From assembly GCA_009908945.1 (NCBI GenBank), contig JAAAOI010000153.1, positions 1 through 51,946 on the forward strand: 51,946 nt of DNA, read 5' to 3'. Below are positions 29,968 to 51,946 of this stretch, one piece after another; positions within the stretch are counted from its first letter, which is position 1; each line of letters begins with the position of its first letter. The stretch comes from Bacteroidota bacterium (lineage in GTDB: Bacteria > Bacteroidota > Rhodothermia > Rhodothermales > Salinibacteraceae). The notes under the pieces were generated by a model. That model was not told the DNA's origin, did not search any database, and saw nothing but the letters and a program-made list of their open reading frames with translations. Both the position numbers and the translations under genes were made by a program.

Positions 29968-30066
29968 CAACGTTCCCTCATGGTGAACAGGGGCGAACCG
30001 AACGGATGAACAAGCTCTCCCGCGAAGGTCATTGGGGGATGCCGGTTGCGATTCCTCGTGCGGGGC

Positions 30067-30993: not shown

Positions 30994-31008
30994 GAGCAAG
31001 CACGCAGG

Positions 31009-31806: not shown

Positions 31807-31827
31807 GGGGGGTGTATGTGTACTGAA

Positions 31828-33603: not shown

Positions 33604-34966
33604 GGACGTTGATGAAGTCGCTGATTTTGTGTTCGATTTCCTGCCACTCGGCGGCCGGGTCGGAGCCCGTGACGATGCCAGCGCCCGAGAACAGCGACAG
33701 GTCGGCGCCGTCCACCAGCCCGGAGCGGATGCCCACGGCAAAGGCCGCGGCATCGTCCTGCACCCAGCCCACCGGTCCGGCATACCAGCCGCGGTCCAGC
33801 GGCTCCATCGCGCGGATGTGCTGGAGGGCCCCCTCGGTAGGCGTGCCCCCGACGGCCGGCGTTGGGTGCAGCGTGCCCAGCAGATCCCACACGTCGACGC
33901 CTTCCTGCAGGCTTCCCTTCACGGCCGATTGCAGGTGCCGCTTCCGCGCCAGGCGCAGCTCGGAGGGCGCCTCCTCCACCGTTAGCGTCTGGGTGAGCGG
34001 CGCCAGGGCCCGCCGGATGCGCTCGCGCACAAACGCGTGCTCGCGTCGGTCTTTGTCGCTTTGCAACAGCGCGCGGCGCAGCCGAGCGTCGGCCGCCGGG
34101 TCGTCGGCCCGGGGACGCGTGCCCGCCACCGCCTCGCTGCGCACCCGGGCGCCTTCCTTGGCAAACAACAACTCGGGCGACGCCCCCACGAAGGCAGGCC
34201 CGGCCGCCGACTGAAACGCAAAGTGAAAACAGTTAGGGGTGGCTGGCTTCAGCAAGCGAAGCAAGGTGAACGGTGCCAGCGGGGCAGCAAACGTAAACGT
34301 CGCTACCCGTGCCAGGACGACTTTCTCCAGGGGCGTCGTGGCGATGGCCTCCAGCGCCTCCCGCACCGTAGCTTCCCATGCGGGGCGATCGGGGGCGTCG
34401 GTGCGCGCTACTGGAGCCGCCAGGGCCGCGGGGGGCGAGGCCGCAGGATGCAGCCGCACCTGGTGCACCAGCGCCTCGACTACCGACCGGTCGTCGTGGC
34501 CGGGCCGCAGGTTGCACCGCAGCAGCGTGCCCTCCGGCGTCCGGTGCAGCTCAAGGCGCGGAAGTACGAAGCGAAACGTGCTAAACGGCTGCCAGCGCGC
34601 CTCCGCCGGCCGGCCACTGTCGAACCGCAGCCCTCCGATATAGCGGCCGCCCTCCATGAAGGAGTGCTCGCGGAGTACCTGTGTCAGCGCCGCCCGCCGC
34701 ACCGGGGCACGAGAACGCTGCACATCAGCGGCCCCTACCGCCGCCATTTCGTGGTGGCCGTTGCGGTCCGACCAGTACGTGCGTTCCGCCTGCGGCTGCG
34801 CGTCCAGCCAGGCCAGCACGTCCATCGGCGGCATGGGCACCGTCACCTGCGTCAGCTCCGTACGACCGTTGGACTGCAGCCCCTGCCGTACCGCCCGCAA
34901 CAGCTGCTGCCGGGTGCGGCGGGCATCAAACCGATGCCTGGAAGCAATGTCGCTGGCTGTACCCAT
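33578..34966 (-). CDS. menF: Isochorismate synthase
   Basis: A 462-residue chorismate-binding enzyme for the first committed step to menaquinone. Signatures: VAGTRPRADDPAADARLRRALLQSDKDRREH, GGTPTEGALQHIRAMEPLDRGWYAGPVGW and GAGIVTGSDPAAEWQEIEHK, which bind chorismate and Mg. The start at 34966 (MGTASDIASRHRF) is at the end of an intergenic stretch; the frame is open to 35080. It is the first gene of the men operon and overlaps menD by 20-26 nt. Homologous entC, pabB and trpE are less likely because of the operon. Confidence 0.93.
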   Translation of the reverse strand: MGTASDIASRHRFDARRTRQQLLRAVRQGLQSNGRTELTQVTVPMPPMDVLAWLDAQPQAERTYWSDRNGHHEMAAVGAADVQRSRAPVRRAALTQVLREHSFMEGGRYIGGLRFDSGRPAEARWQPFSTFRFVLPRLELHRTPEGTLLRCNLRPGHDDRSVVEALVHQVRLHPAASPPAALAAPVARTDAPDRPAWEATVREALEAIATTPLEKVVLARVATFTFAAPLAPFTLLRLLKPATPNCFHFAFQSAAGPAFVGASPELLFAKEGARVRSEAVAGTRPRADDPAADARLRRALLQSDKDRREHAFVRERIRRALAPLTQTLTVEEAPSELRLARKRHLQSAVKGSLQEGVDVWDLLGTLHPTPAVGGTPTEGALQHIRAMEPLDRGWYAGPVGWVQDDAAAFAVGIRSGLVDGADLSLFSGAGIVTGSDPAAEWQEIEHKISDFINVLGLDPRRS

Positions 34967-35116
34967 GCCTTCAGCAAAACATAGTGAATGAAGACCGCTT
35001 TTCGGGGCTCCTGTGAAGTAAAGCGCCGATGCGAATGAATAAATTAGGGCAGGCGTTCCAGCCTGGCGCGGGCGTCGCAAGAGGTTAACATCACAGGCGA
35101 GGCACCAGGCGAAGCC

Positions 35117-36554: not shown

Positions 36555-37970
36555 TTACTCGTTAGAACCGTTTTGGCGTGTCTCGTCCGTGTCCCCGTCA
36601 GGTGCAGGTGGTGGGCTCGCGGGGGCCGGCTCAGGAGGCCTGTCATAGATCTCCGGGTTGAGGAAGTCCACCCGCTCAGCCGCGTTGGTGTCGAAGCGGC
36701 GCAGTGTACGGTTTATGTCTTCACGGCTGCGGCGGAGGAGGTCCCGCTCAAACGGCCGCTCGGCGCGTTCGCGGAGCGGATCGACCAGGCTGGCCTGCAG
36801 CACAATCAGCAGCTCGCGTTGGATGAGCGTGGTGCTCGTGAGGCCGGTCAGGTAGCGGATCCCGAAGAACCAGCCGGGCAGGTCCTTCAAGATGGGGATG
36901 CCGCGCCGCGACTCGGTCTCTTCCGTGCTAATCAGGCCACCAATCACGGTTTGCTCACCATCTAACAGCATCACCCGCGTCTCCGCCGTGTTGCGGTCTA
37001 CGATGGGGCCCGATGGCGTCACCTGCCCGCTGGAGTTCTCCACGCGGACTTCAAGGTCAATGAAATCGACCAGCGGGGCGCCCAGCGTGTCGGCAATGGG
37101 TTGCGTGATGAGCGTGGGGGTTACATCGATGATGATGCCGGTGTTCACAAACTGGGTGATGGTGTTGCCGGCAAAGTCCCGTGTGGTGAAGGGGATATCG
37201 CTACCAATCTGGATGTTGCCCTCCTCCCCACTCTGCACCGTGACCCGAGGGCTGGCAATGGTCTCGCCCGCGCCGCGCGATTCAGAGATGTTGATAAACT
37301 CTTGCAGGCGCTGCGCGCTCAGTTCTCGCGGGAGCACCACCACGTCCTCCGTGGCGTCGGCAATGCCACCGGTGAGCACTTCGATGTCCCCCCCGGCGCC
37401 ATCACCGGCGAGGAACGAGTTCCAGTTCAGCCCGATTTCCCGCGCCCGGTTCACATCCAGCGAAAAGAGGACCGCGTTAATCTGAATGTCGCGCGTGTCC
37501 AGGTTGAGGCGATCATCGCCCGACACCGTCGTCATGCGGGCCGGCTGCTCACCTGCTCTGGCCTCACCCGCGGCGACTTGCTGCGAAGGGCGTGCCTCCT
37601 CAATGAAGAAGAAGCGATCCGTCTCGCGGTACGTCAGATTGTTGGCCTCCAGTACCAGGTCGAAGGCATCAAAGAAGTACATGCCTGAGATGGAGATACC
37701 AATCTCGCGGGTGCGTCCTTCGGGGTCGATGACTTGCTTCTCAAAGACGCGCCGAAAGATCGGGTTGAGAAAGTCGACGAACTGCTCAAACGAAGCATTC
37801 GGGCTGAAGGACACGATCTGGTCCTGTGGAATGAAGGTTCGGAACTCCCGCTGTGGCGGTTCTTCACGATCCTGCGCCTGACCGGGCACAGCGGTGAGGC
37901 CGATGAGCAGGAGCACAAGCGCGGTGGCCAGGACGGGGCGAGACATAGGGGTTGAAAGCAAGTTCTTCAT
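36555..37970 (-). CDS. Secretin (PilQ/GspD family)
   Basis: A 471-residue outer-membrane secretin. After a signal peptide (about 1-33, ending GQAQD) is an STN/N-like domain (about 50-125, YFFDAFDLVLEANNLTY), a linker, and the secretin core (about 160-395) with ETIASPRVTVQSGEEG, IPFTTRD, and the signature LLDGEQTVIGGLISTEETESRRGIPILKDLP. A Pro-rich tail closes it. It forms the outer-membrane ring of a type IV pilus or type II secretion-like machine. It is short (PilQ is often over 700) and lacks AMIN and several N domains. It follows the PilO-PilP-like gene by 76 nt. Confidence 0.93.
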   Translation of the reverse strand: MKNLLSTPMSRPVLATALVLLLIGLTAVPGQAQDREEPPQREFRTFIPQDQIVSFSPNASFEQFVDFLNPIFRRVFEKQVIDPEGRTREIGISISGMYFFDAFDLVLEANNLTYRETDRFFFIEEARPSQQVAAGEARAGEQPARMTTVSGDDRLNLDTRDIQINAVLFSLDVNRAREIGLNWNSFLAGDGAGGDIEVLTGGIADATEDVVVLPRELSAQRLQEFINISESRGAGETIASPRVTVQSGEEGNIQIGSDIPFTTRDFAGNTITQFVNTGIIIDVTPTLITQPIADTLGAPLVDFIDLEVRVENSSGQVTPSGPIVDRNTAETRVMLLDGEQTVIGGLISTEETESRRGIPILKDLPGWFFGIRYLTGLTSTTLIQRELLIVLQASLVDPLRERAERPFERDLLRRSREDINRTLRRFDTNAAERVDFLNPEIYDRPPEPAPASPPPAPDGDTDETRQNGSNE

Positions 37971-38046: not shown

Positions 38047-39060
38047 TTAGGGGCGCTCGTTGATGGGCTTTAGGGTCCCCCGGTCCTGATGCTGACGGTA
38101 GCGGTTAGGGAGGTTGAGCTCAAGCTCAATATCGTCCACAATGCCACCTTTGTTAAGGCGGGCCCGGACGACGCCCTCCATGGGGTCGACCCTCGTGAGG
38201 CGGCCGAGGTATACGTCTTCGCCCTCCCCCACCGAGACGAACCCGTCGGCGCTGCGGAAGACGGCCCGATCGCCTACGATAGACACCAGCTCGTCGGCTT
38301 CCACGTTGACCAGCTGGTAGGTGTTGGGCGGCAGGCGGTCCATGATGCCCGGGAAGAACGGATTCATTTGCGGCCGCTCATCCGGAAGGACAAACGCTGG
38401 GACTGGCGGCCGGTCGTCGGCGACCTGGCTGACGGGGAGGTCGTACTCCTCCAGCATGGCCAGCGTGGACTCCTCGGGGGCGCTCAGGACGCTGGAGCCG
38501 CCGAAGTAGGCGTCGACCCCCATCCGAAACGACACCATGACCTGCATCCGCTCCGTCCCGCGCTCTTCATCTTCCTTCATGACGTCGATGTGGTCCAGCC
38601 GGACGTCCCGCACGCGGTACATCTTGCGGTTATTTTCCAGCTGCCAGACCACGCGGTACAGGTCGTTGAAGTACCCGCGGCCCTGCACATCGTACGTGTG
38701 GTAGTCGTAGTCGCCCTGCCGCTGCGTCCCCCGAAAGGTCACATCGAAGTTCTCGAAGCCGCGCCGGGTGATTTCGTTGAAGTACCCGATGACCGACGGG
38801 CTGGAGAGCTCATCAGGCAGTTCTTTGTAGCGCGCCTTCCACCGGGCCATCACGTCATCGACCATCATGCGCGTGTCTGCCTGCTCCGACATCAGGGCGC
38901 GCATCTCGGCCTGCTCCATCTCGATAGCTTCCTGCGCTTTTTCCAGGCGCTCCAGCTCGGCGGGTTGCTCCATGTAGGTCACGTAGATGCCGCCGGCAAG
39001 GACGCACACCCACACGACGGACAGCAGGAGAAGGTTGTAAATGTTGTTAGACAGCGACAT
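38047..39060 (-). CDS. PilO-PilP-like fusion protein
   Basis: A 337-residue inner-membrane protein. One N-terminal helix (about 8-30), a coiled coil (about 33-65, rich in Glu/Met/Ala) and a PilO-like ferredoxin fold (about 85-190, with SPSVIGYFNEITRRG and YHTYDVQGRGYFNDLYRVV) are followed by a Pro-rich linker (210-240) and a PilP-like beta domain (about 250-322): LVSIVGDRAVFRSADGFVSV, then VYLGRLTRVDPMEGVVRARL. In typical type IV pili PilO and PilP are separate proteins; PilP, a lipoprotein, contacts the secretin. Here the PilP part seems to be joined to PilO. It follows the PilM-PilN-like gene by 68 nt and precedes the secretin. Confidence 0.72.
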   Translation of the reverse strand: MSLSNNIYNLLLLSVVWVCVLAGGIYVTYMEQPAELERLEKAQEAIEMEQAEMRALMSEQADTRMMVDDVMARWKARYKELPDELSSPSVIGYFNEITRRGFENFDVTFRGTQRQGDYDYHTYDVQGRGYFNDLYRVVWQLENNRKMYRVRDVRLDHIDVMKEDEERGTERMQVMVSFRMGVDAYFGGSSVLSAPEESTLAMLEEYDLPVSQVADDRPPVPAFVLPDERPQMNPFFPGIMDRLPPNTYQLVNVEADELVSIVGDRAVFRSADGFVSVGEGEDVYLGRLTRVDPMEGVVRARLNKGGIVDDIELELNLPNRYRQHQDRGTLKPINERP

Positions 39061-39128: not shown

Positions 39129-40970
39129 TTAGTCGGTAGCGTCGTCGTCGAGGGCGGCGGAAGACATCGGGGGCTGCTCGCCCTCAGCGGCTTGCTGCTC
39201 GGCGATGCGCTCGCGGAGGAAGACCGCCGCTTCCGGCAGTTCGTTGGAGAGCGGTACCCGAAGCGTGTAGGAATAGACCGGCCACTCGCGGATCTCGGCA
39301 AAGGTCAGGGTTTCGATGCGGCCATCCAGCCGTTCGGCCAGGGTTACCACCCCGTCGCGGGAGGTGGCGCTGCCGCTCAGCTGCAGCTCGTTGCCCGAGG
39401 GCTGCCAGCTATCCACCCATAGGCCTTCCACGACGGCCATCTCGCGGGCCGCTTTCTCCATCGCACGGCTCCAGCGGTCGCTGCCCACCATGAGGTCTTC
39501 CAGCACATCCAGTCCGCGCACCACTTCAGCGTGCACGTTCTGCAGGCTATCGATGCGGGCTTGCAGCACGGTGGGGTCGGCGTCCACATACGCGGGCTGC
39601 TGCTGCTCCACCCGGTCGCGGTAGTCCTGAATGCTGCTTTGCAGGGTGAAGAAGCGGGCCACAAAGAAGAGCACGGTGCAGAAGAGCACCACGTACATCG
39701 CCATGATGTGCCAGGTGACGGGCAGCACAAACTGCCGGCGGCGCAGTTCGGCGGGCAAGAAGTTGATGTCGGCAAATGCGTCGGCATACGCCGCGTCGTT
39801 GGCCAGACGCAGCGCCGCCAGCGTAGCGGGGATGGTGGCGGCCTTGCCTTCGCTTGGCGTACCGTTCTTGGTCGGCGGCAGCTCCTCGCGCATGCCCCGG
39901 ACGTGCGCTTCGGGGAAAAACATCTCAAAAGCATCCGCCAGGTCGTCCTCCCGATCTTCGCTGGCCAGCAGCACGTGTTCAATCTCGCCAATGCCGTACT
40001 CATCCTGCAGCAAGAGCACCCGCGAACAGATCGTCTCGGGGGGCTCCACGGCCGTGAGCGAGCGCAGGTTTTCGGTGTGCTTCAGGCGGTCGTCTTCGAG
40101 AAAGAGGACGAGCGTGTCCTCGCTACCGACGCGCACCATGAGGGTGTAGAGCGGCTCGTCCCCTTCCGCGGGGCCGGCGGTATCGGTATCGTCCGCATCG
40201 GCAGCCTTGGCATCGGCCGCATCGGTTGCCTGCGCAGCGACCATGCTGCGCCCCAGGCCCAGGTACAGCGGCACCTCGGTATCCAGCAGCTTGGCCGGTG
40301 GCAGCCGGCGCTTTTCTTCGCGCAGCTCGGTGAGCGTGGTGGCCACCGGGTTTTCGGCACGCGACGTCACGGCCAGGTAGCGGGGCACCCCTTCGTCGGT
40401 GGGCGTCAGGCGCAGAAACGCCACGCGCTCATCATCCGATGCGCCCTCGTGTTGTTCTTTCAGCGCCGCTACCAATTTCTTGCGGCTGACGGCTTTATCC
40501 TTCTCCTCGGTGGCCTTTTCCTCTGGCAGATGCAGTTCTACGGCCGACACATCCGAGGCCTCCAGGGCAAACGCCATCGTGGGGCGGGCATAGCCCAGGT
40601 CCTCGCACTCGGCCAGGATGTCGGCCAGCTCCAGCGCGAAGGATACCGCCACCTGGGCGGAGCTTCCGCCGCTCAGGTCAGCCGCGCCACCCTCCAGCCC
40701 CCCAAACTCGGAGGCAATGAACATATTGTCGACATCGCTTCCGCCTTCGTCTCCAAACTGGATGTTGAAGTCGGAGCCGCTTTCTTCAAGGGCGTCCAGG
40801 TCGTCGCCCATGCTGGCTTCCGGCGTGCTGGCGCCCCGGGAGGAACGCTGCCGCGTGAAGGTCCGCACGAGGTGAAGCCCGTCGCCGGTCTGCTCCAGAA
40901 GCGAGGCATGCAGGGTGCGGCCGGTGACCATCACCCCTAAAATTGTGTTTGCTGCGTTGCGCGATGCCAT
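39129..40970 (-). CDS. PilM-PilN-like fusion protein
   Basis: A 613-residue protein. The first 395 residues resemble a divergent PilM/actin-like domain: NTILGVMVTGRTLHASLLE (a degenerate phosphate-1 strand), VAFSLELADILAECEDLGY, and LYTLMVRVGSEDTLVLFLEDDRLKHTENLRSL, with acidic insertions (about 45-80 and 235-255). Residues 401-413 (DINFLPAELRRRQ) match the PilN cytoplasmic tag that binds PilM; a membrane helix (417-441), a coiled coil and a PilN-like periplasmic domain (about 475-590) follow. Nucleotide-binding residues of PilM are poorly conserved, so ATP binding is doubtful. It sits between the PilT-like and PilO-PilP-like genes. Confidence 0.72.
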   Translation of the reverse strand: MASRNAANTILGVMVTGRTLHASLLEQTGDGLHLVRTFTRQRSSRGASTPEASMGDDLDALEESGSDFNIQFGDEGGSDVDNMFIASEFGGLEGGAADLSGGSSAQVAVSFALELADILAECEDLGYARPTMAFALEASDVSAVELHLPEEKATEEKDKAVSRKKLVAALKEQHEGASDDERVAFLRLTPTDEGVPRYLAVTSRAENPVATTLTELREEKRRLPPAKLLDTEVPLYLGLGRSMVAAQATDAADAKAADADDTDTAGPAEGDEPLYTLMVRVGSEDTLVLFLEDDRLKHTENLRSLTAVEPPETICSRVLLLQDEYGIGEIEHVLLASEDREDDLADAFEMFFPEAHVRGMREELPPTKNGTPSEGKAATIPATLAALRLANDAAYADAFADINFLPAELRRRQFVLPVTWHIMAMYVVLFCTVLFFVARFFTLQSSIQDYRDRVEQQQPAYVDADPTVLQARIDSLQNVHAEVVRGLDVLEDLMVGSDRWSRAMEKAAREMAVVEGLWVDSWQPSGNELQLSGSATSRDGVVTLAERLDGRIETLTFAEIREWPVYSYTLRVPLSNELPEAAVFLRERIAEQQAAEGEQPPMSSAALDDDATD

Positions 40971-41039: not shown

Positions 41040-42338
41040 CTACCCCAGCAGGTGCTTGAGGCGGCGTTTGTTGTTGGCGTAATCGACGGCCGTCTCCATG
41101 GTGATTTGCCGCTGCTGCACCAGCTGATGGAGGTCCTGCTCCAGCGTGGTCATGCCGAGTTTATTTCCCTCCCACATCATCTGATAGATTTCGCCGGTGT
41201 TGTCGTTTTTGATCGCGGCGCGGGCGGAGGACGTCATCCAGAGGACTTCTTTGGCCAGGATCCGGCCGCCGCCCACCTTGGGCAGCAGTTTCTGCGAGAT
41301 GACGCAGCGGAGCACGTCGGCCAGGCGGTTGCGGATGCGCTCCTGCTCCTCCGTCGGGTACTCGGCCACGATCCGGTCGATGGTCTCCACGGCAGAGATG
41401 GTGTGCAGCGTGGAGAAGACCTTGTGGCCGGAGTCGGTAATTTCGAGGGCGGAGGAGATGGTGTCCGGGTCGCGCATCTCCCCAATCACCACGATGTCGG
41501 GGTCCTGCCGTAGCGCCTGCACGATGCCCGACTTGAAGGTGGGTACGTCGCGCCCCACTTCCCGGTGGCGGACGATGCACTCCTTCGGGTCGTGGATGTA
41601 CTCAATCGGCTTGGCCACGATGACGATATGGGCCGGTACGTCTTCGTTGTTGGCGTCGATGATGGCATCCAGCGTGGCGCTCTTTCCGGAGCCCGTCACC
41701 CCGGTCACGAGCGTCAGCCCATCGCGGATGTGGCGAAACATGACACCCTTCTCGATCATGCGCGGGAAGCCCAGCGACGGCAGCGGAAACAGCTCGTCTT
41801 TGATGAGGCGCATGTTCAGCGCCAGGTGCTGGTTGTCGTAATAGCACGTGGCCCGGAAGCGCGTCGGGCGGCCGTCTTTCTCTTTGGCGGGCACCTGATA
41901 CGAGAAGTCGAGCGAGTTCTCGTCCTTGAGCACCTCCAGCTGCCGCTCGTTCAGCAGGTTCAGGAAAAGGATGTCCGTCTCAGCATAATCATACTCGCCC
42001 AGGTCCTCGTACGGCCGCTTTTCGCCGTCGACGCGGTACCAGAAGCGGCCCCGGCAGCCCATCCCGCCGGCGTCCATATCGGACGCGCCGAGGTCGATCG
42101 CGCGGCGGGCGTAGATGCGCATGTGCTCGCGCAGCTGCGTGCGGTCTTTGTCCAGCAACGCGTTTACCTGATCGGCCAGAAAGTGAAGCCGCTCCTCCCC
42201 ATCCATCGACTCGGGGACGGCGTCGCAGACGGTTTTGACGATCTTAGGCAGGGGCGGCACCGACACTGGCTTGGCCGCAGGCCGGCGCGGCGTCTTCATC
42301 TGCTCGTTGACGATGTCGGCCAGGGCGGGATTGCTCAC
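41040..42338 (-). CDS. PilT-like type IV pilus retraction ATPase
   Basis: A 432-residue hexameric secretion/retraction ATPase. An N-terminal extension of about 85 residues precedes the PilT N-domain (GASDMDAGGMGCRGRFWYRVDGEKR). The core shows Walker A GVTGSGKSATLDAI (about 216), the Asp box, Walker B IVVIGEMRDPDT and His box GHKVFSTLHTISAVETIDRI. The VISQKLLPKVGGGRILAKEVL stretch is typical of PilT, not PilB, and the Cys4 zinc site is missing. I chose GTG 42338 (VSNPALADI), but ATG 42299 (MKTPRRPA) is possible. It starts a second transcription unit after a terminator-like hairpin, followed by the PilM-PilN-like gene at 69 nt. Confidence 0.92.
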   Translation of the reverse strand: MSNPALADIVNEQMKTPRRPAAKPVSVPPLPKIVKTVCDAVPESMDGEERLHFLADQVNALLDKDRTQLREHMRIYARRAIDLGASDMDAGGMGCRGRFWYRVDGEKRPYEDLGEYDYAETDILFLNLLNERQLEVLKDENSLDFSYQVPAKEKDGRPTRFRATCYYDNQHLALNMRLIKDELFPLPSLGFPRMIEKGVMFRHIRDGLTLVTGVTGSGKSATLDAIIDANNEDVPAHIVIVAKPIEYIHDPKECIVRHREVGRDVPTFKSGIVQALRQDPDIVVIGEMRDPDTISSALEITDSGHKVFSTLHTISAVETIDRIVAEYPTEEQERIRNRLADVLRCVISQKLLPKVGGGRILAKEVLWMTSSARAAIKNDNTGEIYQMMWEGNKLGMTTLEQDLHQLVQQRQITMETAVDYANNKRRLKHLLG

Positions 42339-42515
42339 GGGGCAGCAGGGAGAGGTCGAGGAATATCGAAAAATCGGGGCGCCGTAATGACCGCTCGAAG
42401 GGCGCCCCAACCACCGAAAGGTATCGCCCTCCGGCCGGGTTTCTTAACCCGAGATGGCTGTTTTTTAGCCCACGGGGCGCACGGTACAGAACGCACCGCC
42501 GGCCGCTTCGAAAGC

Positions 42516-42637: not shown

Positions 42638-43729
42638 TTAGTCCCCCGCTTCCTCAAACTCTTCCCCCTCTGCCGCCAACCATTCGTCGTGGGGAATCAT
42701 CTCCACCGTGAAGGTCTGGTCCGACATATCGGGGATATTGCCAAAGTCCTCCAGGACCTTAAAGCCGGTCCCGGGTTCGAGGGCCCAGTCTTTGTGGTCC
42801 GTGTAGCGTCCCTGCTTACGGTCCCATTTGTTCGACCGTCCGCTGGTGGTGTACCCGAACTCTTTGATGGCCTCGTGTTGTTCGCGGCTGAACTTGCGGA
42901 GGTCTTCGAAGGTGAGGCGGTACACGCCGGCGGTGCTCTTGCTCTCCTCCACCATGGCGTACATGCCTTCTGTCATGTCCTCAAATTCTCCGGCGGTTAT
43001 TTCGAGGGCCCAGTGGTAGTGGTTGTACCGGTTGTAATCGAACGGTACCGTGATGTCCGCGTCGCTGTACATGCCCGGGAAGTCCCCGACCGCGTCGCAG
43101 CTCTTGTCCACCGCCAGGACGAAGTTGATCTGCGTGCCGGCCGGGATCACCCGCTCGTAATCGCGGACGGCAACGCCATCGACCCGCGGGATGTGGTTAT
43201 GCCGGTTCTGAGGCGGGAAGAGCATGTCGTGCTCGGGCTCGTAGTCCGGGTCGTCTTCGTAGTCCGGGTCCCAGAGTTCCACATACAGCCCGGAGCAATA
43301 CCCCGCCATGGAGCCATTGTACGAGGACCGTAGCACCACGTCCTCGTCGGCCCGCAGCGTCCGGGTTACGCTCTGGCCGTTCATCGTGTAGGAGGCCTTG
43401 CCGTAGCTGCCGGTTGCCTCCACGATGTAGCCCGAGCCCCCGATGTGGCGGAGGCGCGCGGTGTAGCGCCCGCCTTCGTAATCCCCCTCCAAGGCTCCAG
43501 CCGTTTCAACCAGGTCATCCGGACGGATGTCGGGGTTGTCAAAAATGATACGGCGGGCCTTAGACTCCATCGCGTTGTAGCCCGAACGGGCAATTTCACG
43601 CGCGATGAGCTCTTCCTGCCGATCCGCCTCACTGGCGTCGATGTCCAACGTCGCTTGCGTGGCCTGGTACATCAGAAGCGTACCCCCGATGAGGCCGGCC
43701 ACGACCAATAAAATAGCTGCTTTACCCAT
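42638..43729 (-). CDS. Membrane-anchored pilin-like protein (third of three)
   Basis: A 363-residue protein with an N-terminal membrane helix directly after the start (MGKAAILLVVAGLIGGTLLMYQ), then a long amphipathic helix (about 30-60, SEADRQEELIAREIARSGYNAMESKARR) and a large beta-rich acidic ectodomain with only two Cys (CSGLYVELWDPDY; KSCDAVGDF). The shape matches type IV pilin-like minor components of the PilX/PilY/GspK kind, but I see no leader with a G|F cleavage site. The start ATG at 43729 has a clear GGAGG about 8 nt upstream, so it is well supported. It follows the second pilin-like gene by 78 nt. Confidence 0.72.
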   Translation of the reverse strand: MGKAAILLVVAGLIGGTLLMYQATQATLDIDASEADRQEELIAREIARSGYNAMESKARRIIFDNPDIRPDDLVETAGALEGDYEGGRYTARLRHIGGSGYIVEATGSYGKASYTMNGQSVTRTLRADEDVVLRSSYNGSMAGYCSGLYVELWDPDYEDDPDYEPEHDMLFPPQNRHNHIPRVDGVAVRDYERVIPAGTQINFVLAVDKSCDAVGDFPGMYSDADITVPFDYNRYNHYHWALEITAGEFEDMTEGMYAMVEESKSTAGVYRLTFEDLRKFSREQHEAIKEFGYTTSGRSNKWDRKQGRYTDHKDWALEPGTGFKVLEDFGNIPDMSDQTFTVEMIPHDEWLAAEGEEFEEAGD

Positions 43730-43807
43730 AACACTGCCTCCAATATGATGAAAGTCCTGCACGAGAATCGATGTGTGCGCCGGGGCGCATGCATCGGTGG
43801 GGGTGGA

Positions 43808-44488
43808 TTATCCGCCCGACGACTCCTCCACCGTCAACTGATCGTTGTCGGCGTTGCTAATCATGAGCGTGGAGCCGTAGTACACCTCTCGAAGAAAGGT
43901 GCGGTCGGACTCGTACGGGGTAACCATGGCGAACCGCAGGCGTGTATTTCGAATGTCGCGTGGGTCCACCGCAAAAGGGTCTTCGATAGGGTTGGTGTCG
44001 CGGTCTAAGAGGTCGATGCGCAGGTAGCTCAGCAGGTCATTGCTCTGGCCGTCCGGCTCCTCGGGCTCGGCGCCCACCGTCCGGTAGCGCTGCATTGCGT
44101 AGACCGGCAGCACGCGCTCGCTGGAGGTGCCCTTGCCCAGCGTACGGGTCCCGACCTCGCTCAGCTCGTAGCGCACCTGAACTTGCAGCGTGTCAATGTC
44201 ATCGACCACGACCTGCAAGCTGTCGTAAACAAACGTAAAGTCGGTCGTCACACCCACAGCATTGGTATCCAAGGCCGTGATGGCCAGCTCGTCGCGGCTC
44301 ATGTTGCGCCCCATAAAGAGCAAGTCATCCTCCAGCCAGGTTGCCATTTGTTGCGCCTGACTCTTGACTGTGTACGTGGCTGTCCGCTCGACCATCACCT
44401 CGTTGAGGCGCTGGGTGGAGGCCAGCACAATGAGCAGCACCATCGCGCCGATCACCGTTGCCGTCAGGTTGTCGTATAAAAAAATCAT
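43808..44488 (-). CDS. Membrane-anchored pilin-like protein (second of three)
   Basis: A 226-residue protein. A membrane helix near the N terminus (about 8-25, LTATVIGAMVLLIVLAST) continues into a helix rich in Glu/Arg/Thr (MVERTATYTVKSQAQQMATWLEDDL), as in pseudopilins. A beta-rich acidic ectodomain follows, with TDFTFVYDSLQVVVDDIDTLQVQVRY and LRFAMVTPYESD. There is no Gly-Phe prepilin peptidase site before the helix; the short MIFLYDN leader lacks the usual charged part. It follows the first pilin-like gene by 27 nt. I call it pilin-like from topology and neighbours, not from a recognised family. Confidence 0.7.
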   Translation of the reverse strand: MIFLYDNLTATVIGAMVLLIVLASTQRLNEVMVERTATYTVKSQAQQMATWLEDDLLFMGRNMSRDELAITALDTNAVGVTTDFTFVYDSLQVVVDDIDTLQVQVRYELSEVGTRTLGKGTSSERVLPVYAMQRYRTVGAEPEEPDGQSNDLLSYLRIDLLDRDTNPIEDPFAVDPRDIRNTRLRFAMVTPYESDRTFLREVYYGSTLMISNADNDQLTVEESSGG

Positions 44489-44515
44489 AGCCGTTGGGGC
44501 GCCACTGGGGCGCGC

Positions 44516-45079
44516 TTATTCAAGCGAGGGCATTTGGTAGGTAAACACGCGGCTCAGCCGGATCGGCTCGCGCAGCAGGGGCTCCAGCCCGGAGGGCCAG
44601 GTATCCCGGACCAGCACGGTGACCTCCTTGCTGGACGTCCGGTTGCTTGCGGGCTGGCCCATCTCGTCGACGTACTGCACGCGGATGTCGACATCAAAGT
44701 AGAACGTGTCGACGCTGATGACGAAGGGGACCTGAGCCGTCTCCATGTTGTGGAAATGCTCCACGGCTTCGCAGTCGTCGGAGCCCGCATCCAGCACGTC
44801 GCAGCCCCGGCCGCCGGAGAAGTGATCCACCGGGTCCTTGAGCTCAAACGAGGAGATGATCTGCGACGAGGTCATGCCATCCGTGTCGTTGCTCAGCAGC
44901 CAGGCGTCATAGGCTCGCTCGCGCAGCAGTTCAATCATTTCCACGGCTACGGCCGAGCCCATCTCGCGCATCTCGCCCGCCATCGTGGTGCGCTGCACGT
45001 CCACGTAGCGCACCTGGGTGCTGTACGAGAACGTCACCGCAATCATCATCGCAAGTAGAGCAAGCAGGGTCTGTTGCAT
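44516..45079 (-). CDS. Membrane-anchored pilin-like protein (first of three)
   Basis: A 187-residue protein. The hydrophobic helix begins almost at the start Met (QQTLLALLAMMIAVTFSYS), followed by an amphipathic helix (about 25-55, TTMAGEMREMGSAVAVEMIELLRER) and a beta-rich domain (SFELKDPVDHFSGG, VDTFYFDVDIRVQYVDEMG). A Cys pair (CDVL ... DDCEAVE) could form a disulphide. No charged leader or G|F site is present. It starts 17 nt after the PilB/GspE-like gene, so it is surely cotranscribed. The layout suggests a minor pseudopilin, but sequence identity to a family was not recognised. Confidence 0.7.
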   Translation of the reverse strand: MQQTLLALLAMMIAVTFSYSTQVRYVDVQRTTMAGEMREMGSAVAVEMIELLRERAYDAWLLSNDTDGMTSSQIISSFELKDPVDHFSGGRGCDVLDAGSDDCEAVEHFHNMETAQVPFVISVDTFYFDVDIRVQYVDEMGQPASNRTSSKEVTVLVRDTWPSGLEPLLREPIRLSRVFTYQMPSLE

Positions 45080-45096: not shown

Positions 45097-48000
45097 TTAG
45101 TCGCGGCTGGCTACCACGCGCATCATCTCCTCAGCGGACGTCTCGCCGCTTTGCACGATGAGCTTGGCAGAGTCCTGCAGGGTGAGCATGCCGTCTTTCA
45201 CAGCGAGGTCTTTGATGTCTTCATCGCTCAGCTTGCCCTCGGAGTCGGCAATCAGGTGGCGCATCTCGCGGGTGAAGTACATGGCTTCCGTGACGGCGCG
45301 CCGGCCTTTGTAGCCCAGCCCGCCGCACTTCGGGCATTTGCGGTCGTTGCCTTCGGTGTAGAAGGTCGCCCCTTCAATGTCCTCGGGCGTAAAGCCGAGG
45401 TTCTTCAGGAAGATGGGGTCGGGATCGGGGTCCACCCGCTTGCACTGCGGGCAGAGCTTCCGAATCAGGCGCTGGGCCACCACGAGGTTGATGGCGTAGG
45501 CGATGAGAAAGGGCTCCACGCCCATCTTGTAGAGGCGGCTGACCGCGCTCGCGGCGTCGTTGGTGTGCAGCGTGGAGAAGGTGAGGTGGCCCGTGTTGGC
45601 CAGCTTGATGGCCAGCTCGGCGGTATGGCGGTCGCGCATCTCACCGACCATCACCACGTCGGGGTCGTGCCGCAGGATGGACCGCAGGGCGTCTTCCAGC
45701 CCCAGCTTGTTGTTGAGCTTGATCTGGCGCACCCCGGGCAGGATGTACTCCACCGGGTCCTCTACCGTCAGCACGTTCACCTCGGGCGAGACGACCTCGT
45801 GCAGCGCAGCGTACAGCGTGGTCGTCTTACCGGAGCCGGTCGGCCCGGTCAGGATCACCATGCCGTGCGGCTGGCTGATGGCGCGCTTGAAGCGCTCGAA
45901 GGCCAGCTCCTGCAGGCCCAGCTTGCGGAGGTCCTTGATCACCTTCCGGTCATCCAGCACACGAATCACAATGGACTCGGAGCGGACCTCGGAGGCGGCG
46001 TTGGCAATCGGCATCACCGAGACGCGGAAGCGGATCAGCGTCTCGTCGATCCAGCGCTGGATGAAGCCGTCCTGCGCGGCGTCCCGCTCGAAGCGGTCCA
46101 CATTCATCGAGTTGTCTTTGATGACCGCGATGAGTGCCTCGGGGTGCACCTTCTTCTCTACATGCCAGCGCTGCAGCCGGCCGTCGAGCCGGAAGTGGAT
46201 TTCGACCTGCTTATCGGCGTTGGGCCAGATGTGGATATCGGAGACGCCCTGCCGGGTGGCTTCCACGAGGGTGGCTTCGAACAGGTTGATGAGCTTGGAG
46301 CGGCTCATCTCAGCTTCCAGCGCTTCGTCGTCCACGAGGTTGTTCTCCTCGTCGTAGCTGGTGCCGAGGTCCATGGCCCCGCCATCGTCGTCGATGCGCT
46401 CCAGGTACTCGTTCTTGCGCGGGAACGCCTCCGCAATGAGGCCACGGACGACCCGCTCGGGCGCATACCGGAGCTCGAACCGCTCCAGCTTCAGCTTCTG
46501 CATCATGCGGTGCACGTCCGGGCGCGTGGGGTCGTGCGTGATGAAGGCCACCTTGATGGCGCCGCTGTTCGACTCCAGGTCCACCTCGTAGGGCAGCACG
46601 CCCAGGTCCAGCAGCTGATCGCGGTACTCCTCATCGAACGTGTCGGTGACGGACCGGGCAAACTCGGGATCCGGCTTGCCCTCGCGGATGTCGGCGGCGG
46701 GGAAGGCATACACGTTGGCCGCTTCTGCAAAGATGGCCTCGCGGTCGACGCCCTCCACCTGCGCCAGAATGCGCCAGAAGGACTCCTTCAGGCCTTCCTC
46801 GTCGCGCTTAATTTTGGCTTTGCGCATCTGCTCTGTGCTGATGGCCCCCTTGCCAAAGAGCGCCGCAATCACGCGGTCCTTCTTTTTGATTTTTTGCAGC
46901 TCCGGATCGTCAAGGGTTTCCTCAGCAAAGTTGGGCTGCTCGTCGTCGCCCCAGTTGGTGTCCGCGACAGGGGCATCGTCGGGCAGGTCGATGGAGCTGC
47001 CATCGAACGAGGCGCCTTCTTCCGCGTCGGCGCCAAACGGCTCGGCGGGCGCGATCTCGTCTTCTACCAGCACGTCCTCCTCGGCCTGCCGGTCGGTGTG
47101 GACGGCCTCGGCCAACTCGTCGGCGTTGATGCTGTGCTGTTCGGGCTTGAGCTGGGTGCGGTGCGGCGCGGCCGGCTCTTCCGCCCGACCCGCAGCGGGC
47201 GTTTGCTCCGGTGCAGAGGGCTCGTCGGGCCGCACGGGATCGGCAGGCGCAGCAGGTGCCGACGGTTGGGCGGTGATGCCGCCGGTTTCGTCGGTATCGT
47301 CGGTATCGTCGGTAGCATCTTCTGCGTCGGCGACAGGAGGGGCCTCCGTGGGGACATCGGCCTCCAGCGCGGCGTCAGCGGCGTCTACCGGAGCCGGTGC
47401 AGGCGCTTCCGGAACGGCGTCTGGGGCGGTGTCGCGCCCGCCTGCTGCGGGCGGGCCCGGATCTTCGGTTTCAGCTGACCTGCCGGCGGGCGCATCGGCG
47501 GGCGCATTGGCGGGGGCATCGGCGGGGGCGTCAGCTTCGGCAAACGGATCGGCATCCGCCTCATCCTCGCCAAACCCGGCAAACGGCTCCCAGCCCAGGT
47601 CGTCATCGTCGTCGTCAAACGCGAACAGGTCCTCGGCGGGGTCTTCTGCGCCGGCGGCCTCAGCGGCCGGCAGCGGTTGCGCGGGGGCGTCGCCTGCCGC
47701 CCGGTCGGCGGCGGGCGCTTCCGCAGCGGGTGCTTCCGCAGCGGGCGCTTCCTCCGTCGCTTCATCCGTCGCCTCTTCCATCCGGTCGTCGTGCGCGACG
47801 TCGTGCTCCGCGGCCGGTGCTTCGGCGGCGGTTTCCTCAAGCGTAGCCGTGCGGTCGTCTTCGGTATCGGGTGGCCCGGCCGTGTCCGCCGGTGTGGAGT
47901 CATCAGCTGGCGGAGCAGCGGCCGTGGGTTCTTCGGCTGGCTCGGCCTCGTCTTGTGCAGAACGGGCCAGGGCCTCCAGCGCATCGGGGGTGTCGTCGTC

Positions 48001-49317
48001 ATCGCCCAGCACCGCGTGCAGCCGCTGGCGCACCTCGGCCTCAGGCGCAAAGGTGAGCGTCACCGTCATGCCGAGGCTGCGTACCAGCTCCTCCACCTCC
48101 TCGCATGAGGGGTCGTGCGTCGCCACCGTCAGCAGGTGCCCGCCCACCTCAGGGTCGATGGTCATGGCGACCGGCAGCACGTTCAGCTCTTGAAGCGCTT
48201 CCTGCACGCCGGCAGGAAAGAGGCGCAGGATAGCGTTGACAAAGTCAGCATCAGGATGCTCGGGCGTAAGCGGCGCAGAGGCGTACTCCAGCACATCAGC
48301 GGCTGTGGCGTACGCGGCCGGGGCCGGCACGTGGCCCTCGGCGATGAGTTCGCGCCAGAGCACCGCGTGGGGATCCTCCAGGCGGTGCTGCACGCGCTCG
48401 GCTACCGCAGGGGCCACGTAGCCCTCGGCGCACAGCGCCTCCGCCACCGGGTCGCCCAGCGCCACCTGCGGGGCCGGAGCTTCAGCCTCCGGAACAGCGG
48501 GCTCCGCAGGGGCCGGCGGCTCCATCGTCCGCTCCTGGCCTTGCGGCGGATCTGTGGGATCATCGGGAGGGGTGGGCTCCCACCTGGCATCATCCGATAC
48601 AGGCGCATCATCCGATACGGGCGCATCATCGGACATCCGTGCGTCAGCAGGCGCGTGGTCCGGGGTGGAGCGGTCGTCGGTCGTGCGGTCGTCGGTCGTG
48701 CGGTCCAGGGTAGAGTGGCCCGGGGCTTCATCATCAGGAGCCCACAGGTCTTCCGCCGGGGCTTCGTCCAGGGCTTCTTGTGGCGCTTCTGCCGTCTGCG
48801 GCTCGTTCGCCTCGTCCTGCGAGACGGCAGACGGTGCGTTTGCAGCCCCCTCGCCGGGCAGCTCGGGCGGCTGCGCCTCTGCCTCCGTCGCTGAAACATC
48901 AGCGGCTTGAGGCCCGGCAGCAGCCTCCGGCGTGTCAGGCTCGGCACCCGCGGCCTCGCGCCTGCCAGCATCTGCCGCCTGTGGGTGCGCGGAAGCCTCC
49001 TCGATGGGAGCCTCCGGAACCGAGGCCTCCTCGATGGGAGCCTCCTCAGCAGCGGCCTCTTCAACTGGGGCCTCTTCAACTGGGGCCTCTTCAGCGGGAG
49101 CCTCCTCAACGGGAGCCTCCTCGACGGGAGTCTCCTCCGTGGGCGCATCGGGCGGCGTATCGGTAGATGCGCCGTCGCCTTCCTCCTGCACAAAATCGAC
49201 AAGCCAGCCCATCCGGCGTTTTCGACCGGCGCGGCGACGCCCGGTGCCCGAGGCCTCGGGCGCCGTGCCCTCGTCCTCAGGCGCAGGGTGCTGCTCGTTA
49301 TGGGAATGATCGGACAT
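45097..49317 (-). CDS. PilB/GspE-type assembly ATPase with a giant N-terminal region
   Basis: A 1406-residue ATPase, about 2.5 times the usual length. The C-terminal third (about 1060-1406) has everything expected: VILTGPTGSGKTTTLYAALH (Walker A near 1156), VNVLTVEDPVEYI, DPDVVMVGEMRD, HLTFSTLHTNDA, and a zinc site CPQC ... CPKCGG. A standard GspE N-domain lies at about 829-940 (VYAFPAADI, LGVLPYEVDL). Before it are two long acidic, Ala/Pro/Glu-rich regions (about 50-285 and 450-815), separated by a second, degenerate GspE-N-like domain (about 295-440, VNAILRLFPAGVQEALQELNVLPVAM). It starts 44 nt after the platform gene. It should drive pilin or pseudopilin assembly. Confidence 0.95.
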   Translation of the reverse strand: MSDHSHNEQHPAPEDEGTAPEASGTGRRRAGRKRRMGWLVDFVQEEGDGASTDTPPDAPTEETPVEEAPVEEAPAEEAPVEEAPVEEAAAEEAPIEEASVPEAPIEEASAHPQAADAGRREAAGAEPDTPEAAAGPQAADVSATEAEAQPPELPGEGAANAPSAVSQDEANEPQTAEAPQEALDEAPAEDLWAPDDEAPGHSTLDRTTDDRTTDDRSTPDHAPADARMSDDAPVSDDAPVSDDARWEPTPPDDPTDPPQGQERTMEPPAPAEPAVPEAEAPAPQVALGDPVAEALCAEGYVAPAVAERVQHRLEDPHAVLWRELIAEGHVPAPAAYATAADVLEYASAPLTPEHPDADFVNAILRLFPAGVQEALQELNVLPVAMTIDPEVGGHLLTVATHDPSCEEVEELVRSLGMTVTLTFAPEAEVRQRLHAVLGDDDDTPDALEALARSAQDEAEPAEEPTAAAPPADDSTPADTAGPPDTEDDRTATLEETAAEAPAAEHDVAHDDRMEEATDEATEEAPAAEAPAAEAPAADRAAGDAPAQPLPAAEAAGAEDPAEDLFAFDDDDDDLGWEPFAGFGEDEADADPFAEADAPADAPANAPADAPAGRSAETEDPGPPAAGGRDTAPDAVPEAPAPAPVDAADAALEADVPTEAPPVADAEDATDDTDDTDETGGITAQPSAPAAPADPVRPDEPSAPEQTPAAGRAEEPAAPHRTQLKPEQHSINADELAEAVHTDRQAEEDVLVEDEIAPAEPFGADAEEGASFDGSSIDLPDDAPVADTNWGDDEQPNFAEETLDDPELQKIKKKDRVIAALFGKGAISTEQMRKAKIKRDEEGLKESFWRILAQVEGVDREAIFAEAANVYAFPAADIREGKPDPEFARSVTDTFDEEYRDQLLDLGVLPYEVDLESNSGAIKVAFITHDPTRPDVHRMMQKLKLERFELRYAPERVVRGLIAEAFPRKNEYLERIDDDGGAMDLGTSYDEENNLVDDEALEAEMSRSKLINLFEATLVEATRQGVSDIHIWPNADKQVEIHFRLDGRLQRWHVEKKVHPEALIAVIKDNSMNVDRFERDAAQDGFIQRWIDETLIRFRVSVMPIANAASEVRSESIVIRVLDDRKVIKDLRKLGLQELAFERFKRAISQPHGMVILTGPTGSGKTTTLYAALHEVVSPEVNVLTVEDPVEYILPGVRQIKLNNKLGLEDALRSILRHDPDVVMVGEMRDRHTAELAIKLANTGHLTFSTLHTNDAASAVSRLYKMGVEPFLIAYAINLVVAQRLIRKLCPQCKRVDPDPDPIFLKNLGFTPEDIEGATFYTEGNDRKCPKCGGLGYKGRRAVTEAMYFTREMRHLIADSEGKLSDEDIKDLAVKDGMLTLQDSAKLIVQSGETSAEEMMRVVASRD
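47492..47527. repeat. Tandem 12-bp repeats in the assembly ATPase gene
   Basis: Three near-identical 12-bp units (47492-47503, 47504-47515, 47516-47527) code for an Ala-Pro-Ala-Asp/Asn repeat in the second disordered region. They keep the reading frame. Confidence 0.75.
47711..47755. repeat. Tandem 15-bp repeats in the assembly ATPase gene
   Basis: Three units of about 15 bp (47711-47725, 47726-47740, 47741-47755) code for EAPAA repeats in the second disordered region. They keep the frame, so length variation would be tolerated. Confidence 0.75.
48584..48700. repeat. 18-bp and 15-bp tandem repeats in the assembly ATPase gene
   Basis: An 18-bp unit encoding VSDDAP occurs about three times (48584-48637). 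A 15-bp unit cggtcgtcggtcgtg occurs twice exactly (48671-48685, 48686-48700), coding for a DRTTD repeat. Both are in frame, within the first disordered region. Confidence 0.8.
48988..49140. repeat. 15-bp-period repeats encoding EEAPV-type pentapeptides
   Basis: About ten degenerate 15-bp units code for the pentapeptide pattern E-E-A-P/A/S-V/I/A at residues 60-110 of the assembly ATPase. The period keeps the reading frame, and the protein stretch is highly acidic and likely disordered or extended. Confidence 0.85.
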
Positions 49318-49361: not shown

Positions 49362-50720
49362 CTACCGGAGGCCCATCATGCTTTGCGTATCAGGCTGCAC
49401 GAAGGCGATCTCGGTGGAGAGCACTGTCAAGAAACAGATGCCAATGGTGATAAAGACCGCCACGGCCGTCTGGATGCTCTCAACCGCGTTTTTGAGCTGC
49501 AGCGACGTTTCGCGCTCGTAGTAATCGGCCATCTGGCGGGCGGAATCCTGCACGTTGCCCGTCTCGGCGCCGCTGCGGAAGCGCGAGAGCGTCATGCTGG
49601 TGAACACGCCGCTGGCTTCCATCGACTTCACGAGGCCCGTCCCCTGCGCCACCATCATGGGCACCGTGGTGGTTTTGATCTGGTGCTCCATGTAGCGGTT
49701 GCCGCAGGCCTCGGAGGCCACCTTGATGACGTTCAGGTTGTCGCCCGCACCGGAATAGAGCACGGAGAACACACGGCAGAAAATCTCGATGTTGAGCTTG
49801 TGCAGGAGCGAGCCAATGATGGGGATACGAATCAGGTATTTGTGGATGAGGAACTGCCCGCGGTCCGATCGGGCCCAGAGCCAGAAGCCTACCGACGAGG
49901 CCACGATGACAATGGCACACCAGAGCCAGTACTGATCGAGCCAGTCGGCAAAGGCCAGCGTCGCCACCGTCATCGGCGGCAGCTCCACGTCCAGCCCCTG
50001 AAACAGGCGGGCCGTTTCGGGGAAGATGTACCAGATGTACCAGATGAGGCAGGCCAGGAGCGCCAGCACGGTGATGGCGGGCGTAATCATGGCCGAGCGG
50101 ATGCTCTTGCGAAACTCGTCCTTGCGCTCCAGAAAGCGGGCGGTGGCCTCGTAGATTTCGGACATGTTGCCCGACTGCGAGGCGATGCCCAGCATGTAAG
50201 CGGTAAACTTGCCGAAGATGTGCTGGTGCTTCATGAAGGCCTGCTTGGCATCGGTGCCGCCTTTGAGGTCGGCGTTCAGGTCGCGGATGGCCTGGCGGAG
50301 GCTCTTCGAGGAGACGTCATTCACGAGCAGGTTCAGCACCTCGTCGAACGGCAGCTTCTCCTTCAGCAGGTTGGCCGAGAGGCGGACGAACATGATGATG
50401 TCGTCGTTGGCCGGCTTCGTCTGGAAGTTGAACCATTTCTTTTTGACGCTCAGCACCTCCAGGCCCATCTTGGCGAGGGCCTTCTCCAGCTCCTCCGCCG
50501 AGAAGGCTTTCTGCTCGCCCCGCACCACTTCGCCGTTCGGGTGCTTCACCTTGTACAGAAAGACGCGTCGCTCCAGCAGATTTTTCGTGCGGAAGCGGTG
50601 CTTCTCGGCCAGGGTGTCGACCTTCTGCCGGGCCGTCCGCTTCGAGGACGCAAACACGGTCCCTTTCACCGGCTGCCCGGTCTGGCTCATGCCTTCAAAT
50701 TTGAACTCTTTGGTGGCCAT
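49362..50720 (-). CDS. PilC/GspF-type inner-membrane platform protein
   Basis: A 452-residue type II secretion F-domain protein that couples the assembly ATPase to the pilin fibre. Two GspF repeats are visible: about 105-235 (FVRLSANLLKEKLPFDEVLNLLV ... ITPAITVLALLACLIWYIWY) and about 305-445 (FCRVFSVLYSGAGDNLNVIKVASEACGN ... SIQTAVAVFITIGICFLTVLST), with three membrane helices in total. The N terminus holds two copies of a short beta-alpha motif (FKFEGMSQTGQPVKGTVFA and YKVKHPNGEVVRGEQKAFS) where PilC usually has one. It lies 15 nt after the O-ligase-like gene and 44 nt before the ATPase gene, so it belongs to their transcript. Confidence 0.95.
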   Translation of the reverse strand: MATKEFKFEGMSQTGQPVKGTVFASSKRTARQKVDTLAEKHRFRTKNLLERRVFLYKVKHPNGEVVRGEQKAFSAEELEKALAKMGLEVLSVKKKWFNFQTKPANDDIIMFVRLSANLLKEKLPFDEVLNLLVNDVSSKSLRQAIRDLNADLKGGTDAKQAFMKHQHIFGKFTAYMLGIASQSGNMSEIYEATARFLERKDEFRKSIRSAMITPAITVLALLACLIWYIWYIFPETARLFQGLDVELPPMTVATLAFADWLDQYWLWCAIVIVASSVGFWLWARSDRGQFLIHKYLIRIPIIGSLLHKLNIEIFCRVFSVLYSGAGDNLNVIKVASEACGNRYMEHQIKTTTVPMMVAQGTGLVKSMEASGVFTSMTLSRFRSGAETGNVQDSARQMADYYERETSLQLKNAVESIQTAVAVFITIGICFLTVLSTEIAFVQPDTQSMMGLR

Positions 50721-50735: not shown

Positions 50736-51946
50736 CTATTCGTTCACGATGATGAACCCCTGCTGCCAAAAGCGGGGATGGAGTTTGGGGTCGTCGGCCT
50801 GCTCTATAAAGTGCTGTTGCTGCTCCATCACATGCGAGGCCTCGGACACGGTGGACCCGAAGAGAAAGACACTGCCGATCACAATAGCGGCCATCAGTGT
50901 CGTAGCCAGCGCGCGCCGGGTGCGCTTCTCCGGGATGGGGGGCTTTCTGGAACGTGCGTTCTGGGCTGTCACGATGTAGAGGCCAAGCGCCCAGCCCACC
51001 ACCAGCACCATGAGCAATTGACTCAACGGCGCGACAACGAGACCACTCACCATGGTATGCGCCAGGGCTGCCATCAGAACGGCCGTCAGGGCCACGCGCA
51101 CCTGGCTGTGCGGCCCCCCGCCGTCCGTGCGCACCACCGCTATACTCTGGCGTACCCAGGCCACCAGCGCCCACGCCACAATGATGACCAGCAACGTCGC
51201 CGCAATGAGTCCCCACTCGGCGGCAAACTGCAGCACCGCGTTGTGCGGGGAGCCTCCCATAGAATCGGGGTACACGGCGTAGTGCATGGGGCCCACGCCC
51301 AGGAGCGGTGCGGACTGGATCTGCTCCAGCGCAAAAGCCCAGTAGTCGAAGCGCCCGCTGTCTGAGGTAGGGCTTCGGTGCAACAGGGAGCGAGCGGCCG
51401 TGGCGTAGTAGAGCACGCCATACAGGATGCCCCCCACAGCAGCAGCCGATACCTGGAACCCTAACCAGCGCGCAGCATCTTTGCGAAACAGCACGGCCAC
51501 CGCCAGTGATGCTATAAGAAGTCCAACCACCGTCCCACGGCCGCCGGACGTAAACAAGAGCATCCACCACCCGCAGCACAAGAAAAACAGCGCCGTTTTA
51601 GCGACGAGGTGCTTTTTTGGCAGGAGAAGGAACGGCAGCACAAGCAGGGGCAGGGTCCACGTCTGCAGGTGATTGAACATCCGGATATTGGAAAACCCGA
51701 GATTGATATCCGGCCAGACGATCATGCGCCCATTGACGACATGCTGCAGCCAGGAATATCCCCACGTCAGCATGTACAGGCTGACGCAGAGCACAACCCC
51801 CCAGAGGAGCAGGTCGCGCAACCGCTCCTGCTGCGCGAGCGACCCCGCCGCCACAATCAACACGGCGCCTACGAGCCCTATGTAAAGGCTTACATCCATA
51901 AAGGCGTACTGTACATTCTCAGCACGTGCCGCGGAGAGCAGGCCCA
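50736..51946 (-). CDS. O-antigen ligase/polymerase-like membrane protein, partial
   Basis: A polytopic membrane protein; 403 residues to the C terminus are visible, and the open frame continues past the right edge (SARAENVQYAFMDVSLYIGL), so the true start is outside the window. Ten or so hydrophobic segments flank a long periplasmic loop with Wzy_C/O-ligase features: FSNIRMFNHLQTWTLPLL, FTSGGRGTVVGLLI, and LGVGPMHYAVYPDSMGGSPHNAVLQFAAEWGLI. Such proteins ligate or polymerise glycans at the outer face of the inner membrane (WaaL, Wzy, or PglL-type pilin glycosyltransferase). It lies 15 nt upstream of the platform gene, so a role in modifying the pilin-like proteins is possible but unproven. 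Confidence 0.85.
   Translation of the reverse strand, partial: GLLSAARAENVQYAFMDVSLYIGLVGAVLIVAAGSLAQQERLRDLLLWGVVLCVSLYMLTWGYSWLQHVVNGRMIVWPDINLGFSNIRMFNHLQTWTLPLLVLPFLLLPKKHLVAKTALFFLCCGWWMLLFTSGGRGTVVGLLIASLAVAVLFRKDAARWLGFQVSAAAVGGILYGVLYYATAARSLLHRSPTSDSGRFDYWAFALEQIQSAPLLGVGPMHYAVYPDSMGGSPHNAVLQFAAEWGLIAATLLVIIVAWALVAWVRQSIAVVRTDGGGPHSQVRVALTAVLMAALAHTMVSGLVVAPLSQLLMVLVVGWALGLYIVTAQNARSRKPPIPEKRTRRALATTLMAAIVIGSVFLFGSTVSEASHVMEQQQHFIEQADDPKLHPRFWQQGFIIVNE

Follow-up and report, generated by a model that had tools for sequence, protein, structure and literature searches.

A PilB-type assembly ATPase with two GSPII/MshEN domains separated by a long acidic tether, neither of which keeps the c-di-GMP-binding residues

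The window (the whole stretch of DNA that was analyzed, 51,946 nucleotides) encodes a PilB/GspE-type assembly ATPase in which two GSPII/MshEN domains, here called N1 and N2, precede the ATPase and are held apart by a long acidic linker. The arrangement is best explained by a single duplication of the GSPII/MshEN domain before the radiation of the order, and the residues used by MshEN domains to bind c-di-GMP are missing from both copies. On balance, a reading is favored in which N2 serves in docking to the platform, N1 acts as a tethered landing pad, and neither copy senses c-di-GMP. The gene and its parts are as follows.

45097..49317, minus strand: PilB/GspE-type assembly ATPase, 1406 aa, with two GSPII/MshEN domains (uninterrupted open reading frame, ATG start)
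48469..49317, minus strand: N-terminal acidic low-complexity arm, residues 1-283 (27% D/E, 36% A/P, net charge -60)
49189..49212, minus strand: MGWLVDFV motif, residues 36-43 (kept in families f1, f5 and f10)
47989..48468, minus strand: N1, first GSPII/MshEN-like domain, residues 284-443 (homology to N2, fold match, purifying selection)
46909..47988, minus strand: acidic Ala/Pro-rich N1-N2 linker, residues 444-803 (29% D/E, 3% K/R and net charge -92 over residues 444-800)
47569..47601, minus strand: DLGWEPFAGFG linker motif, residues 573-583 (identical in three species of the genus)
46393..46908, minus strand: N2, second, ATPase-proximal GSPII/MshEN-like domain, residues 804-975 (homology to N1, fold match)
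45097..46392, minus strand: N2D and RecA-like ATPase, residues 976-1406 (T2SSE match and motifs)

A profile search of the proteins of the window placed a T2SSE match (PF00437) at residues 1006-1400 with E=1e-100, and the ATPase motif set is complete, with the Walker A motif at 1158, the Asp box at 1184, the Walker B motif at 1218 and the His box at 1243; the tetracysteine zinc motif of assembly ATPases is also present (CxxC at 1289 and 1328). These data bear out the full C-terminal GspE ATPase that a preliminary description of this DNA had read from the gene. The NCBIfam score was slightly higher for PilB (TIGR02538, 404 bits at residues 817-1402 against an equivalog cut-off of 676) than for GspE (TIGR02533, 381 bits against an equivalog cut-off of 630). 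Because both scores lie below their equivalog cut-offs, the protein is named PilB-type and no equivalog call is made; the product is best explained as an extension (assembly) ATPase that serves a type IV pilus-like machine.

Sequence comparison revealed that N1 and N2 are homologous over nearly their whole lengths. Residues ~284-430 aligned with residues ~809-958 (BLASTP, E=6e-14), the N1/N2 alignment scored 129, whereas none of 1000 shuffles exceeded 57 (z=18.9), and profile-profile comparison matched the two domains over 159 columns with 99.8% probability (E=5e-30). The likeness first seen between residues ~357-440 and ~880-960 was thus found again, and it extends further, over the full two-part GSPII/MshEN domain, which in N1 is laid out as a four-helix ND0 followed by an alpha/beta ND1. 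AlphaFold models were produced for N1, with N1 orthologues as the only input (pLDDT 79.5), and for N2 (pLDDT 87.5). The order of helices and strands agrees between the two models, a four-helix bundle being followed by an alpha/beta subdomain; the structural dissimilarity that had been named as grounds for abandoning a duplication was therefore not observed. When the N1 model was compared with the PDB, the only matches with E<0.01 were N domains of the GSPII/MshEN type (X. citri PilB-N, Thermus PilF, MshE and XpsE), and the N2 model retrieved the same set, other folds being absent at that threshold. Structures matched by both models include MshE 5HTL, Thermus PilF GSPII-A and GSPII-B, and XpsE-N, and the top fold match of N1 was X. 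citri PilB 7lko. A search of the PDB by sequence profile with N1 or N2 retrieved no MshEN structure, so it is fold comparison that ties the domains to solved structures. Similarly, the window protein scored under the curated cut-off of 23.1 for Pfam MshEN (PF05157), which was passed by two relatives, one that is 57% identical (G003:C9, 26.2 bits) and one orphan paralogue (G026:C313, 28.8 bits); most of these domains in the lineage escape the Pfam model.

The two-domain architecture is common to two congeneric genomes, namely L005/G025 (1233 aa) and L009/G026 (1030 aa to the contig end), and N1 and N2 lie in one frame in 20 further loci/genomes fetched from the order, with a Walker A motif found in all of these frames except two that run off the contig end. 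The preliminary description had allowed that a frameshift or assembly error might join two genes; no evidence was found in support of a frameshift, chimera or assembly error, and since separate assemblies keep the same frame, such an artifact is refuted and can be regarded as practically impossible. Across 114 genomes of the order, an N1 profile search gave matches in 75. A maximum-likelihood tree was built from 61 domains, and the N1 rows (24/24) fell into one group with support of 100/99, set apart from N2 and from the orphan paralogues described below; because all N1 copies share one clade, these data indicate one old duplication, and the same separation ruled out both a recent duplication and the fusion of an orphan N-domain paralogue. 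Taken together, sequence, predicted structure and the order-wide N1 clade uphold the ancient GspE-N/MshEN duplication that had been proposed. A sample of 395 genomes of the phylum gave few matches outside the order, one per genome and in frames of 600-635 aa. The named relatives in the public collection were Rhodothermaceae and Salinibacteraceae MAGs, and literature searches for Rhodothermus and Salinibacter pilus ATPases found nothing on such an architecture.

The regions flanking N1 were examined by composition and by comparison with relatives. Residues 1-283 and 444-800 contain 3-5% K/R and 10% large hydrophobics, a composition from which both tethers are predicted to be disordered, and a further, short acidic linker joins N2 to the ATPase. 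The 800-residue acidic extension described earlier is acidic in its flanks; however, that span includes N1, with ~283 residues before the domain and ~360 between N1 and N2. The length of the N1-N2 linker in relatives spans 11 to 434 residues. Its acidic character recurs in nearly every relative, families beyond that of the window included, which casts doubt on salt adaptation as the sole cause. The arm is 38% identical to that of a congeneric genome, with many gaps. The strict form of MGWLVDFV occurs in 6 of 25 arms and none was expected by shuffling, a test that is not independent because the regular expression was written after the sequences were seen. This motif shows dN=0 against L005, and a DNA pattern for WLVDFV was found once in each of four genomes searched, that of the window among them, in the ATPase gene. 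The linker motif DLGWEPFAGFG was not seen outside the genus. In the single-copy orthologues of genus g8 (L070-L071), the N-terminal arm carries a conserved stretch of its own, LGPVDSPRFA.PPF.

The evolution of N1 is much faster than that of N2, which has a dN/dS of ~0.05 against a congeneric genome and is 95% identical to L005. Within the family of the window, the second half of N1 is largely lost in genus g7 and N1 is absent in g8, and N1 is therefore dispensable in some relatives. These losses, together with tethers whose lengths vary by hundreds of residues and whose sequences align poorly, would suit a vestigial N1 whose acidic tethers are mainly a halophile-type spacer with no specific function; however, the dN/dS of N1 in the genus of the window (~0.11-0.13) indicates purifying selection, N1 has been retained in several families, acidic linkers occur in other families too, and MGWLVDFV persists where the rest of the arm fails to align. 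A vestigial N1 is for these reasons considered unlikely, with a modest chance of being right.

MshEN domains that bind c-di-GMP carry two 24-residue motifs with an RLG start and a Q end (PMC5013675), and the consensus RLGxx(LVI)(LVI)xxG(LVI)(LVI)xxxxLxxxLxxQ was tested in both window copies. In the alignment, N1 reads PVA...R in motif I and LWR...L in motif II, and N2 reads RVI...R and FWR...Y, respectively; of the RLG...Q residues, a single Arg in N2 is all that the two copies retain. In the genomes examined, the motif residues are likewise lost from N1 and N2. In motif I, the Gly of position 3 has become Ala in N1 and Ile in N2; in motif II, it is Arg in both copies. Furthermore, no GGDEF domain was found in any of the three genomes of the genus (90, 88 and 85% complete), and the control genomes gave matches; GGDEF also had no match in 8 of the 20 two-copy genomes. 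It could be argued that one or both of the domains sense c-di-GMP and thereby switch pilus assembly, in the manner of V. cholerae MshE, given that both models have the MshEN fold and that Thermus GSPII-B binds without the motif arginines (PMC11731258), so that the motif tolerates change at that position. However, the motif glycine is replaced in the window copies, their final Gln has become Arg, Leu or Tyr, the protein falls under the PF05157 cut-off, and the genus gave no GGDEF match where positive controls did, all of which makes c-di-GMP receptors highly improbable here. The possible c-di-GMP binding raised in the preliminary description is accordingly not supported, the motif test having failed and no cyclase having been found in the genus; judged from sequence, c-di-GMP control through N1/N2 would be unlikely. 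PilZ was found in only 5 of the 114 genomes of the order and in none of the genus of the window. The PilZ route of X. citri is therefore unavailable, and PilZ as the partner of N1 was ruled out.

An order-wide alignment of N1 and N2 copies revealed Arg at position 3 of motif II in 47/47 copies and Trp at position 2 in 46/47, i.e., a lineage-specific LWR signature in place of RLG. This conservation could mean that N1 and N2 bind a different small ligand, with WR for LG marking a changed, order-wide pocket; however, fold stability or a protein interface would explain the conserved WR as well, and another ligand is held to be decidedly unlikely. A broader proposal is that the MshEN module was re-purposed in the order, a WR-type surface replacing the c-di-GMP pocket for another ligand or for a lineage-specific protein, and the distal, tethered copy being a mobile arm that captures that partner; this has, in our judgment, a small chance of being correct.

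The neighborhood of the ATPase gene is read as a type IV pilus-like operon, with the following members.

49362..50720, minus strand: gspF/pilC platform protein (PF00482, E=1e-29; synteny)
42638..45079, minus strand: three small proteins with N-terminal hydrophobic segments (374, 226 and 187 aa), probably pilin-like
41040..42410, minus strand: PilT-type retraction ATPase (PF00437, E=2e-31; TIGR01420, 308 bits, just below the cut-off of 319)
39129..40970, minus strand: 613-aa protein with a weak C-terminal PilN match, putatively PilM/PilN-like by position
38047..39060, minus strand: 337-aa protein, possibly PilO-like by position/synteny, with no family match
36555..37970, minus strand: secretin, PilQ-like (PF00263, E=7e-26; TIGR02515, E=4.5e-22)

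Of the 20 two-copy relatives, 19 have gspF immediately upstream of the ATPase gene, the exception being L082, which begins at a contig end. Pfam recognized none of the 374-, 226- and 187-aa proteins, and pilin-like genes are kept downstream of the ATPase in many relatives. The PilN matches of the 613-aa protein are both weak (PF05137, E=0.019; PilN chain of 3jc8, E=0.014). A PilM_2 search did not match this protein; its matches lay elsewhere in the genome, in frames of ~340 and ~450 aa that we read as MreB- and FtsA-sized. Other genes of the window were noted as well. Beside gspF, positions 50736-51899 encode an O-antigen ligase-type (Wzy_C) protein (PF04932, E=1e-14), which could be a ligase for pilin glycosylation or for surface polysaccharide. 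Positions 25564-26673 encode a response regulator fused to a SpoIIE-type phosphatase domain, and positions 27440-35080 hold a cluster of AMP-binding, MenC-like, UbiA, alpha/beta hydrolase, TPP-enzyme and chorismate-binding genes that, named from its families, looks like menaquinone biosynthesis.

Thermus thermophilus PilF is the closest known system, in that tandem GSPII domains likewise stand before a single PilB-type ATPase and both window domains match PilF GSPII structures. However, PilF has three GSPII domains with gaps of a few residues, whereas the window protein has two with a ~360-aa acidic tether, and the B and C domains of PilF bind c-di-GMP (PMC11731258), whereas both window copies are without the motifs. 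Vibrio cholerae MshE has the same two-subdomain fold ahead of a T4P assembly ATPase (PMC5013675), but in one copy, which binds c-di-GMP via two RLG...Q motifs that are absent from the window copies. Xanthomonas citri PilB (ND0/ND1) resembles the window protein in being without the c-di-GMP motifs and in having its N domain followed by a flexible, acidic linker (PMC8389850), and differs in its one N domain and in its partner PilZ. Xanthomonas campestris XpsE and Vibrio EpsE share the N domain fold, and XpsE has lost c-di-GMP binding; however, these are T2SS proteins with a single N domain and no long tether. The N domain of XpsE/EpsE contacts XpsL/EpsL, which are PilM homologues (PMC5013675, PMC8389850), and the N-domain contact in T2SS and T4P is PilM or GspL (PMC8389850, PMC11656802).

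In PilF, the ATPase-proximal GSPII-C is required for PilMN stimulation (PMC6325625), and the distal, non-binding GSPII-A has been proposed as a landing pad (PMC12002112); docking is assigned to N2 and recruitment to N1 by analogy with these roles. N2 would most likely dock the hexamer to a PilM/GspL-like part of the inner-membrane platform. Because the 613-aa candidate has weak PilN matches and no PilM match, this PilM-like partner is placed by gene order only. Since neither copy keeps the c-di-GMP residues, recruitment of a protein partner is the most likely task of the extra copy, in place of sensing that signal. N1 would most likely be a landing pad by which another protein is recruited or positioned; the analysis identified no partner for it. 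The acidic tether, which sets N1 360 residues from N2, may let N1 roam, and MGWLVDFV, upstream of N1, is probably a second contact point. The triplicate GSPII arrangement has so far been reported solely for the Deinococcus-Thermus phylum (PMC11731258); the present one is a separate two-copy form common to much of another order, with the c-di-GMP residues missing in both copies. The roles of GSPII domains apart from c-di-GMP sensing are an open question in the PilB field, and copies without these residues, in an order where several genomes have no recognizable diguanylate cyclase, offer a natural test of such roles.

Paralogues of the ATPase and of its N domains were also observed. A second assembly ATPase of 632 aa with a single N domain is encoded in the genome of the window (L002, G000:C101:8724-10505); no gspF homologue was found around it within 18 kb, and a pilT query cross-matched only the ATPase itself. 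The paralogue in G025 (L032, G025:C30:71524-73300) is apparently split in two frames, with one TGA inside, and appears to be a pseudogene or an assembly error. Orphan paralogues with a GSPII-like domain and N2D, without a Walker-containing ATPase, are present in 3/3 species of the genus (L003:1444-2562 in G000:C148, L041 in G025:C4 and L046 in G026:C313), and these are possible regulators or competitors of the motor. Genus g7 has further ATPase-less GSPII proteins, namely L037/L034 (G008:C44), L036 (G010:C5, two adjacent genes) and L043 (G009:C13); by eye, the N-terminal region of the G008 protein looks like a response-regulator receiver domain.
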